Shown: positions 8,493-21,754 of the stretch, one piece after another
How positions within the stretch are numbered: the stretch's first letter is position 1
Layout of the letters: each line of letters opens with the position of its first letter
NCBI GenBank assembly: GCA_020431995.1
Contig: JAGQHE010000010.1
Coordinates: forward strand, 1-55,827
Reading direction: 5' to 3'
DNA length: 55,827 nt
DNA from: Candidatus Nitrosopumilus sp.
GTDB lineage: Archaea; Thermoproteota; Nitrososphaeria; Nitrososphaerales; Nitrosopumilaceae
Made by a program: the position numbers and the translations under genes
Notes under the pieces: generated by a model
What the model saw: only the letters and a program-made list of their open reading frames with translations
Told to the model about the DNA's origin: nothing
Databases searched by the model: none

Positions 8493-9338
8493 TTATCCGT
8501 ACGATTCATATTTGACTTCGAAGCTACCGTCTTCTCGCTTATCATGTTCTGTGGCAAACCCTTTTGGCTTTAAGAAGTCCATGACACCATCAATTGTTCC
8601 TTGCCAGCCACACACATAGAACATTGTGTTTTCTTTAGTAATCTTGTCCCCGATCAATTCCTCCAACGGAGACATCCCGCTCTCTCTTGGTCTTAGAAAA
8701 GTTTCAACTCTTCCCACTTGACCCGACCATGATCTGTTAAACCATTCCTGTGGCCTACTTATTGCAGCTCTATATTTGAAATTCCACTCACTCTTACCTC
8801 TCTTCTCACTTTCATACTCTAAATTAGTTAGTAGGTCTTTGTAACTTAATTCATCCACATAACTTGCTCCATGTAACACGATAATTTCTCGTTTGTCTCC
8901 GGAATCATGAAGGTGCTGTGCATAGCTTACAAATGGGGCAAGGCCTGTACCGCCACCAATACAAACAATTCTCCTATTATCCTTTTCACCGTTTGGCAGT
9001 TCCTCGTTAATCAATAAAGCTCTACCTGTAGGCTTTAACCAAAGAATTTCATCCCCTTCTTTTGCATTAAATATCTGCGTAGTTAATCTACCTGGAAGTG
9101 GTTTTCTTACCCATCTTATTACTAACTCGACGTATTCTCTATTTTCTGGATGCGATGCAATAGAATAAGCCCGTCTCACAATTTTACCTCCCTCTAAAGG
9201 ATTTGGTAATCCTAATGTGATGAACTGACCTGCTTTATATTCAGGAACAGGGCCGTCTTTTGGAACCAACCTAAGAATTACAAGATCTTCCTTTAACAAT
9301 TGAACATAAGTAATTGTCGCTTTGTTATCTACCACCAT
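8493..9338 (-). CDS. Ferredoxin-NADP reductase-like FAD/NAD(P) flavoprotein (paralogue 1)
   Basis: 281 residues in the FNR fold. The FAD-binding beta-barrel carries RRAYSIAS near 55-62 and a glycine-rich GQFITLGLP strand. The NAD(P) domain carries CIGGGTGLAPF near 126-136, and the C-terminal YVCGWQGTIDGVMDFL helps place the nicotinamide. The protein ends in an aromatic tail (KYESYG). It probably passes electrons between NAD(P)H and ferredoxin or another one-electron carrier. A close paralogue with the same tail is encoded on the same strand about 12 kb away. Complex I here lacks the NADH module, so these flavoproteins are candidates for linking NAD(P)H to ferredoxin (inference). Confidence 0.85.
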   Translation of the reverse strand: MVVDNKATITYVQLLKEDLVILRLVPKDGPVPEYKAGQFITLGLPNPLEGGKIVRRAYSIASHPENREYVELVIRWVRKPLPGRLTTQIFNAKEGDEILWLKPTGRALLINEELPNGEKDNRRIVCIGGGTGLAPFVSYAQHLHDSGDKREIIVLHGASYVDELSYKDLLTNLEYESEKRGKSEWNFKYRAAISRPQEWFNRSWSGQVGRVETFLRPRESGMSPLEELIGDKITKENTMFYVCGWQGTIDGVMDFLKPKGFATEHDKREDGSFEVKYESYG

Positions 9339-19556: not shown

Positions 19557-20633
19557 TTGAGTCAAATATCCTTTGATGTTATGAACGCGAGAGTAACTTT
19601 CAAAAATGTTCCAATACACACGATTTCTAAATTTGCTTTCAAAGATGTTACTGCAGCATGTAATGAATTTAAAAAAATTCCGGGTGTTGAGGAATGTATC
19701 ATCATTCAAACGGCAACTAGAGTTGAAATCTTTACTGTGAGTAACATTGAAACTGAAGATTCTCCAGATGCAAGAAGACCCGAAGGCAAAACACTTTTGT
19801 TAAATAAAATTAAAGATACTTGGGTATCTTTGTCATCATTAGAACAAATTGATATTGATCATTTTGATCAAACCCTTGAAGTTTACAAAGGTGATGATGT
19901 CTATCTGCATCTTTTACGACTGGCTTCTGGATTGGATTCATTAGTTGTTGGATGGCAAAGCGTTTTTGATGACATTGTTCAGGCATTAACAAATGCAAAG
20001 AATGCAGGCGTGTCCGGTAGAGTTCTCAATAAATTATTTGATAGTGTAATTAGACTAGCCGCACGAATGAGAGATACTACTGGAATAGCAAAAGATGTTG
20101 TTTCTTTAGGTGATGTGGCTATAAAATTGGTTGACGAAAAGGCAGGTCTTGACTCCAAGAAGAAAGTACTTGTAATTGGTACTGGTGAATCTGCAGCAAT
20201 GCTTGCAAAAACTTTGGGTAAAAAAGGAATTTCATTTGATGTGACAAGTCGAACTCTAGATCGTGCCACCGGGTTTACAACACTCCTTGGTGGAACTCCT
20301 GTAGATTTTAATGATGTTTTGGCAGGATTTGATAAATATGATATTGTTTTTGTTGCAACAACCTCTGACTATTTCTTGATCACATTTGATAGAATTCGTT
20401 TAGTTATGGAAGAAAAGAAAAAGGGCACATTGATTTTAGATTTATCTGATCCTAGAACTGTGGATGAAGGAATTACTGCACTTCCAGGAATAAAATTGCT
20501 GTTTAGAGATCAAATTGCAGAAATTTATGATGAGAGTGTCAAATCTAGAACTGGTATTATTCCTGCAGTAGAGAAGATTATTGAAAAAGAATTACCTGTT
20601 TTATCTGCTAGAATGAAAAGACTGGATGCTTAA
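19557..20633 (+). CDS. hemA: Glutamyl-tRNA reductase homologue lacking the catalytic cysteine
   Basis: About 358 residues in the GluTR family, which makes glutamate-1-semialdehyde for haem and cobalamin. Seen: the substrate-domain histidine region LHLLRLASGLDSLVVG near 116-131, the NADP fold VLVIGTGESAAML near 206, ILDLSDPRTVDEG near 296, and a C-terminal dimerisation helix. The usual S-T-C-N-R-x-E motif is QTATRVE here: the catalytic Cys is Ala53 and the following Asn is Thr. The GEPQI loop is also altered (GWQSV). Either this is a non-catalytic paralogue or it works by another route. TTG at 19557 is chosen because AGGTGA, a strong Shine-Dalgarno, lies 5 nt upstream; GTG at 19548 is the alternative. 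Confidence 0.8.
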   Translation: MSQISFDVMNARVTFKNVPIHTISKFAFKDVTAACNEFKKIPGVEECIIIQTATRVEIFTVSNIETEDSPDARRPEGKTLLLNKIKDTWVSLSSLEQIDIDHFDQTLEVYKGDDVYLHLLRLASGLDSLVVGWQSVFDDIVQALTNAKNAGVSGRVLNKLFDSVIRLAARMRDTTGIAKDVVSLGDVAIKLVDEKAGLDSKKKVLVIGTGESAAMLAKTLGKKGISFDVTSRTLDRATGFTTLLGGTPVDFNDVLAGFDKYDIVFVATTSDYFLITFDRIRLVMEEKKKGTLILDLSDPRTVDEGITALPGIKLLFRDQIAEIYDESVKSRTGIIPAVEKIIEKELPVLSARMKRLDA

Positions 20634-20638
20634 TTTTG

Positions 20639-20806
20639 TTATAATCCTTGCTTTCTTAAAAGAAACTGCATAATGGCTTCTTTAGAATAATCTATTCCGT
20701 GTTCTTCATCAGTATGGGTTCTAAACTCGTCAATAACACTTTCCATTTCCCCTTCTGCTACAAAATCACATTCAAATCCATAATCATTGCACTTGAGTTT
20801 TGCCAT
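20639..20806 (-). CDS. DUF1059-like small Cys protein
   Basis: 55 residues: MAKLKCNDYGFECDFVAEG, then a helix ending H-T-x-x-E-H-x-I and a Lys-rich C-terminus. This fits the DUF1059 family of small proteins with a Cys pair about 8 apart and an HxxxxH-like segment, suggesting a bound metal ion. Function unknown. The ATG at 20806 is preferred over one 7 codons upstream because a TATA box sits 23-24 nt before it. Convergent with hemA, 5 nt apart. Confidence 0.7.
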   Translation of the reverse strand: MAKLKCNDYGFECDFVAEGEMESVIDEFRTHTDEEHGIDYSKEAIMQFLLRKQGL

Positions 20807-20825
20807 ACTTTGTAGAAAAATAATC

Positions 20826-20833
20826 AATATAAA
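20826..20833 (-). promoter_or_regulatory. TATA box of the DUF1059 gene
   Basis: Minus-strand TTTATATT centred 23.5 nt before the ATG at 20806; it decides the start choice. Confidence 0.55.
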
Positions 20834-20911: not shown

Positions 20912-21754
20912 CTATCCGTATGACTCGTATTTGATGCCAAAACTACCGTCTGGCTTTTTCTCATGTTCTGTAACAAACCCTTTTGGACCTAGATAATCAA
21001 TTACACCGTCAATAGTCCCTTGGTATCCGCAAATGTAAATGATTGTGTTTTCTGGAGTTAATGCTTCTCCCACCATTTCCTCTACTGGTGATAATCCCGT
21101 TTTTTTATCCGGTGCAAAAAATGATTCCACTCTGCCGACATGACCGTTCCATGATCTATTGAAAAATTCTTTCGGTCTACTGATTGCAGCTCTGTATCTA
21201 AAATTCCATTGGTCTCTTCCTCTTCTCTCGCTTTCCAATTCCAAATCTGTTAAAAGACGTTTGTAGCTTAATTCATCCACATAGCTTGCACCGTGGAGTA
21301 TTACCACTTCACGTTTATCGTTGGTATCGTGAAAATGTTTTGCAAATGCAATAAATGGTGCTAGCCCTGTACCTCCACCTACACAAATCACCCGTCTGTT
21401 GTCTTTTTGTCCGTTAGGCAACTTGTCACTAATTTGTAATGCAGTTCCAGTTGGGTCGCCAAGATATACTTCATCACCAACACTTAGATAAAATAATTCA
21501 GTTGTGACTCTACCTGGAAGTGGTTTTCTTACCCATCTAATTACAAATTCAAAATAATCCCTATTCTCTGCATGCGATGCAATAGAATATGCTCTTCTGA
21601 CTATCTTTTTTTCTGATGGTATTGGAAGACCTATTGTCAAAAACTGACCTGTCTTATATTGAGGCATTCCTTTTTCTGGAACCAATCTTATAATCACAAG
21701 ATCTTCTTTTAGCAGCTCTCTGTAAATGACCTTTGCTTTCATTTCAGATACCAT
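20912..21754 (-). CDS. Ferredoxin-NADP reductase-like FAD/NAD(P) flavoprotein (paralogue 2)
   Basis: 280 residues, clearly a duplicate of the flavoprotein gene at 8493-9338. It shares RRAYSIASH, the WVRKPLPGR segment, GGGTGLAPF, HGASYVDELSYK, the AAISRP segment and the KYESYG tail. Differences cluster in the surface before the NAD(P) domain (for example YLGDPTGTALQISDKL here) and in the loop before the last domain, so partner or cofactor choice may differ. It probably exchanges electrons between NAD(P)H and ferredoxin. A TATA-like TATTTATC lies about 28 nt before the ATG. Confidence 0.85.
   Translation of the reverse strand: MVSEMKAKVIYRELLKEDLVIIRLVPEKGMPQYKTGQFLTIGLPIPSEKKIVRRAYSIASHAENRDYFEFVIRWVRKPLPGRVTTELFYLSVGDEVYLGDPTGTALQISDKLPNGQKDNRRVICVGGGTGLAPFIAFAKHFHDTNDKREVVILHGASYVDELSYKRLLTDLELESERRGRDQWNFRYRAAISRPKEFFNRSWNGHVGRVESFFAPDKKTGLSPVEEMVGEALTPENTIIYICGYQGTIDGVIDYLGPKGFVTEHEKKPDGSFGIKYESYG

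Follow-up and report, generated by a model that had tools for sequence, protein, structure and literature searches.

The closest described relative of the gene studied here is glutamyl-tRNA reductase (GluTR or HemA, EC 1.2.1.70), represented by the enzymes of Methanopyrus kandleri (1GPJ) and Arabidopsis (4N7R), in which the cysteine of the loop Q-T-C-N-R-x-E forms a thioester with glutamate. In plants GBP and FLU are described as non-catalytic partners that act on GluTR (PMC4726326). For the archaea, a 2010 survey of haem genes names NMAR_0510 as the sole entry for N. maritimus and points out that it does not list copies located away from the cluster (PMC3004389). A second described system comprises the bacterial-type ferredoxin/flavodoxin-NADP reductases (FPR; 2QDX, 1A8P), built from FAD_binding_6 and NAD_binding_1.

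In a window of 55,827 nucleotides from Candidatus Nitrosopumilus sp. (the whole stretch of DNA that was analysed) a GluTR paralogue is encoded, which shares with GluTR the N-terminal and NAD(P) domains, the spinal helix and the motifs QT..R.E, SGLxS and GxGxxA, and is nested in the GluTR tree. In contrast to GluTR, the paralogue lacks the catalytic Cys, its GEPQI loop is altered, a PDARRxEGK segment is added and the gene lies outside the hem cluster. It is accompanied by genes for a helical protein and an FNR-like flavoprotein (Table 1). The latter has both domains of the FPR proteins, but scores under every NCBIfam equivalog cut-off and falls into a clade of its own. A literature search, with most subscription journals outside its reach, returned no paper on the paralogue or on the three-gene association, which we provisionally regard as a new finding.

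Table 1. Position of the three-gene set, its motifs and the resident FNR-like gene in the window
Feature	Position	Strand	Remark
Resident FNR-like gene	8493..9338	-	ordinary family-wide copy, 67% identical to the module copy
Upstream partner, 237 aa	18831..19544	+	Ala-rich helix; motifs FRREMGEPEFF and, at the C-terminus, GMNVFRTAKGGR; 3 nt separate it from the GluTR-like gene
Cys-less GluTR paralogue, 361 aa	19548..20633	+	GTG start; catalytic-like N domain, NAD(P)-binding domain, spinal helix
Active-site loop Q-T-A-T-R-V-E	19707..19727	+	canonical Q-T-C-N-R-x-E; GCA in place of the Cys codon
Paralogue-specific insert ...DSPDARRPEGK..., aa 70-81	19755..19790	+	catalytic domain; absent from canonical copies
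G-W-Q-S-V, aa 135-139	19950..19964	+	canonical G-E-x-Q-I; E and Q both altered across the paralogue clade
FNR-like flavoprotein (FAD_binding_6 + NAD_binding_1)	20912..21754	-	module copy, convergent downstream of the GluTR-like gene

The Cys-less paralogue and the canonical GluTR of the same genome

The first-pass annotation had placed the reading frame at 19557-20633. The end is correct, but 19557 is only an alternative in-frame TTG and the frame begins nine nucleotides further upstream. The reported replacement of the catalytic cysteine by alanine was confirmed: the codons ACG GCA ACT AGA are found at 19710-19721, with GCA at 19713-19715, and the Cys loss is common to more than 80 orthologous loci. 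As GCA mismatches either Cys codon at all three bases and the loss recurs in so many loci, a sequencing error is ruled out, in agreement with the view that this is not a single error. The change of GEPQI to GWQSV and the preserved NADP fold with LASGLDS were also found as described, and the NAD(P)-binding motif GTGESA is retained.

In a Pfam search of the window copy, GlutR_N (PF05201, 3e-28, 98.9 bits) and Shikimate_DH (PF01488, 9.8e-20, 71.5 bits) both match above their cut-offs, and the C-terminal dimerisation domain GlutR_dimer (PF00745) is absent. The score against the HemA equivalog TIGR01035 is 195.3 bits, under the cut-off of 209.55 bits. By sequence, the top match among solved structures is the M. 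kandleri enzyme (8e-37). An AF2 model was obtained with a pLDDT of 88.9, and in a PDB fold search with this model GluTRs rank first (E 7.6e-25, TM-score 0.50, rmsd 8.7); the modest TM-score is probably caused by a differing domain orientation. Judged by sequence, the protein is thus GluTR-like in its GlutR_N and Shikimate_DH-type domains and outside the GluTR enzymes in its missing catalytic Cys, missing PF00745 and low TIGR01035 score. Because the thioester cannot form in the absence of the catalytic Cys (PMC6399207 for the general mechanism), we infer that the paralogue is not a GluTR. Automatic annotation may label the gene HemA or shikimate dehydrogenase, and neither name fits.

It had been considered that this could be the only GluTR of the organism, in which case tetrapyrrole synthesis would need explanation, and a search for a second hemA with the Cys had been suggested. 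Such a gene was found in the source genome (completeness 99.2%) at C92:12128-13135, which rules out that the window copy is the sole GluTR. It encodes a canonical GluTR of 423 aa with QTCNRIE, GEEQI and the dimerisation domain, reaches 329.9 bits against TIGR01035, over the HemA cut-off, and is flanked by genes for porphobilinogen synthase (hemB), a precorrin-2 dehydrogenase-type protein (PC2-DH) and a fused AhbA/AhbB siroheme decarboxylase (ahbAB). The window copy is 46% identical to it across 354 residues and, unlike the canonical GluTR, has none of these motifs, domains or linkages. Since this genome has a canonical GluTR within its tetrapyrrole cluster, tetrapyrrole (haem) synthesis is accounted for. 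The siroheme decarboxylase subunits AhbA and AhbB are fused in a single protein of 348 aa at L113:8858-9904, beside canonical hemA.

Descent, selection and distribution of the paralogue

All paralogues form one clade (support 100; 100/99 in the careful tree) that is nested in the canonical GluTRs of the Nitrosopumilaceae, and a constraint that keeps the canonical copies as a clade of their own was rejected (p-AU 0.00025). On this evidence the paralogue is a member of the GluTR superfamily by descent. The alignment of homologues also settles the earlier question whether the Cys is lost across a clade: it is, in this single one. Both the duplication and the Cys loss are thereby seen directly; one duplication and one Cys loss within the Nitrosopumilaceae is the most economical reading.

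To describe the residue changes, 36 aligned paralogues were compared with 24 canonical copies (1GPJ numbering unless stated otherwise). The catalytic Cys is missing in 36/36 paralogues, whereas it is present in 24/24 canonical copies. Compared with the canonical copies, C48, N49, E99, position 101 (canonical Q), G134, S152, P238 and N267 are changed, among them S152D-, P238D- and N267D/E-type changes. On the other hand Q46, R50, E52, S94, G98, R138 and R269 are kept: Gln46 in all paralogues, R50 and E52 in 36/36 each and S94 in 34/36. T47 is found in 30/36 and the active-site His84 in 25/36, and the window copy has all four substrate-side residues Arg50, Glu52, His84 and Ser94. New invariants were gained as well, namely F9, L83, H105, D107, Q108 and D274 (window numbering). 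The PDARRxEGK insert is conserved among the paralogues and occurs in no aligned canonical copy; this conservation, together with a pLDDT below 50 in the AF2 model, suggests that it is a candidate binding site.

The first-pass annotation had allowed for another Cys taking the place of the lost one. No substitute is apparent: Cys50, placed on the strand that precedes the active-site loop, is shared with 17/24 canonical copies, and a Cys at window position 127 is present in only 18/36 paralogues and not in the window copy. R199, which by analogy with the shikimate dehydrogenase family would be the 'grip' Arg of the NADP 2'-phosphate type, is still found in the window copy but gives way to M, K or Q in 25/36 paralogues. 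Given this replacement, many of them may have changed or lost their NADPH binding.

Pairwise dN/dS (NG86) of the paralogues ranges from 0.018 to 0.174, mostly from 0.04 to 0.10, and that of canonical pairs from 0.026 to 0.065; selection is thus directly visible. The function had been proposed to be relaxed or changed. Changed is borne out, relaxed only for the Cys position itself, where eight residues are allowed (A/S/T/Q/H/N/P/G, never C), and not for the whole protein with its strong purifying selection and new invariants.

A scan of genome contigs yielded 80 paralogue loci (68-96% identity) from Nitrosopumilus, Nitrosarchaeum and Nitrosopelagicus; those readable through the site have A, S, T or G, and Cys occurs in none. 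Among 250 Nitrosopumilaceae genomes surveyed for presence, the paralogue is found in nearly all near-complete g1 genomes, in g18-g22, g25-g27, g29, g30, most of g32, g35 and g36, and genera g23, g24, g28, g31, g33, g34, g37 and g38 have the canonical copy only. Altogether, about 14 genera retain an intact copy in almost every near-complete genome. No intact second GluTR copy was seen among the 16 other families of the order that were sampled. In one genome of the same genus (G009; contigs C1, C6 and C7; contamination 9%) three equal-scoring copies of paralogue plus partner lie on separate contigs, which is probably assembly redundancy.

Deep-branching paralogues read QTQSR, QTHSR, QTNSR, QTPSR or QNAFR at the active site, and many are still about 420 aa long with PF00745 (shown for L144 and L148). 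As these Cys-less proteins keep PF00745, the Cys was lost earlier than the dimerisation domain.

A functionless relic, that is a decaying hemA duplicate, or a sequencing or assembly artefact could account for the lost Cys and GEPQI residues and for the C-terminal domain missing in part of the clade. However, the gene is intact across so many genera, its dN/dS is about 0.05, it has new invariant motifs and a constant gene partner, and the step from Cys to GCA takes three base changes, so we regard this explanation as highly improbable; decay in particular is ruled out by dN/dS. As far as can be told from sequence, the paralogue is a pseudoenzyme, with the fold kept, an essential catalytic residue lost and purifying selection acting on it. 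Given its strict conservation and its ties to two partner genes, the Cys-less copy almost certainly took a new job rather than decayed.

Such a pseudoenzyme could regulate the true GluTR by binding Glu-tRNA, GSA aminomutase or GluTR and thereby tune ALA formation. This would be consistent with the GluTR fold and the retained substrate-side Q46, T47, R50 and E52, and the dimerisation domain of the deep paralogues would have permitted heterodimers with GluTR at first. The plant regulators GBP and FLU, to our knowledge not homologous to GluTR, would offer a functional analogy only. However, the window copy and its clade are without the dimerisation domain, the gene is away from the hem/ahb cluster, beside ACC or SDH/argH loci, and the linked FNR is left unexplained. 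We consider a regulatory role unlikely.

The helical partner and the FNR-like gene

In all 23 paralogue loci with flanks a partner homologue is located directly upstream on the same strand. In 22 of these the two genes are spaced by -4 to 20 nt, and in the remaining one by 191 nt. The coupling of the two genes is a direct observation, and the spacing points to translational coupling. FRREMGEPEFF and the C-terminal GMNVFRTAKGGR are near-invariant among the partners. The wider surroundings vary, with SDH/argH in Nitrosopumilus, an RFC-ACC locus in G041, G085, G091 and G048, and unrelated genes in G238 and G231; the labels RFC, ACC, SDH, argH and Zn-ribbon are our own reading of the translated sequences. 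No relatives of the partner were found by sequence in Pfam or the PDB. Its AF2 model is poor (pLDDT 66, pTM 0.29), and a fold search with this model gave no match.

In the examined genomes without the paralogue the partner occurs only as a short form of 67-193 aa, located between the Zn-ribbon ORF, which follows a replication factor C large subunit-like gene, and acyl-CoA carboxylase genes. The Nitrosopumilaceae share this placement with three further families of the order (short forms in L191-L208). Since the short form occupies this site outside the family too, the GluTR duplicate joined an older small-protein gene, the product of which was extended N-terminally. In g32 genomes the two forms coexist: the short one occupies the ACC locus, and the long one accompanies the paralogue at a different site. 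When the tables for near-complete genomes were inspected, neither the long partner nor the paralogue was seen without the other; the partner tree (about 110 columns) is mostly unresolved. One may speculate that the small helical protein with GMNVFRTAKGGR is an accessory subunit of acetyl/propionyl-CoA carboxylase.

An FNR homologue adjoins the pair of partner and paralogue in most loci. In raw counts, which ignore kinship among the genomes, at least two FNR copies are present in 11/11 genomes with the paralogue and a single full-length copy in 13/13 Nitrosopumilaceae genomes without it, so that co-occurrence is seen directly; of the two FNRs in G048 one is just 46% identical to the query, and the second FNR of G085 is partial at a contig edge. 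The module FNRs, including the unlinked copy of G238, form one clade (100/97) separate from the resident copies and seen only together with the Cys-less paralogue. For G232 and G238, the resident copy joins those of g32 genomes lacking the paralogue, and the module copy falls among the remaining module FNRs. This suggests that in g32 (G231, G232, G238; L144, L145, L202-L204) partner, GluTR-like gene and FNR travelled or were retained as a unit, off the ancestral ACC locus, and horizontal transfer of the three-gene set within the family is possible. The FNR is not adjacent to the pair in G231 and G238, and in the window it is convergent and not co-transcribed. Between the GluTR-like and FNR genes of the window lies a 62-aa DUF1059 ORF (20639-20827), found at the same place in the relatives L151, L159 and L160.

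The dedicated FNR also raises the question of a new Cys-independent NAD(P)H reductase, acting for example on a ready thioester such as an acyl-CoA, for which the FNR would supply or balance electrons. GluTR itself works by transferring a hydride to a thioester (PMC6399207), the paralogue has an intact NAD(P) fold, and the ancestral site adjoins acetyl/propionyl-CoA carboxylase genes. However, there is no conserved new nucleophile, the NADP-grip Arg is often replaced and the acyl-CoA idea is a speculation prompted by where the gene lies. In addition, genera of the same family, presumably with the same carbon cycle, are free of the gene, and their lack of the module weakens the case for an essential carbon-cycle enzyme. 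We think such a reductase improbable, somewhat more so than a regulator.

A proposed role for the three-gene module

Our preferred explanation, held as a whole with modest confidence, is a neofunctionalised Cys-independent GluTR paralogue that works in a redox-linked module with the partner and the FNR. An ancient archaeal GluTR duplicate would have arisen inside the Nitrosopumilaceae, lost its Cys once at the origin and been kept by selection for another job. The paralogue cannot form the glutamyl-thioester of GluTR, but it probably still binds NAD(P)H and a small carboxylate ligand: the QTxxRxE loop has kept its Arg and Glu, and most paralogues have also kept the active-site His. We propose that it forms a small complex with the upstream helical protein, in which it would be the subunit that binds NAD(P)H and the ligand; the disordered but conserved PDARRxEGK insert would be a likely site of docking, and the dedicated FNR-type flavoprotein a functional partner. 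Against this explanation count that several genera of the Nitrosopumilaceae manage without the gene, that R199 is replaced in the majority of paralogues and that the FNR is unlinked in two genomes.

More tentatively, the three proteins may constitute a redox system assembled from duplicates or extensions of the resident GluTR, FNR and helical-protein genes, the short ancestor of the partner sitting in the acetyl/propionyl-CoA carboxylase gene cluster. In this system the GluTR-like subunit could have a new NAD(P)H-dependent activity or a sensing role outside tetrapyrrole synthesis.

The Nitrosopumilaceae include marine and soil ammonia-oxidising archaea and are among the most abundant ammonia oxidisers of the sea, and nearly every genome of the main genera has the gene. 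The co-occurrence pattern singles out three concrete proteins. A Cys-less GluTR that is under selection across a clade and has a dedicated flavoprotein would mean that a core enzyme of tetrapyrrole synthesis was recruited to another task in this family.
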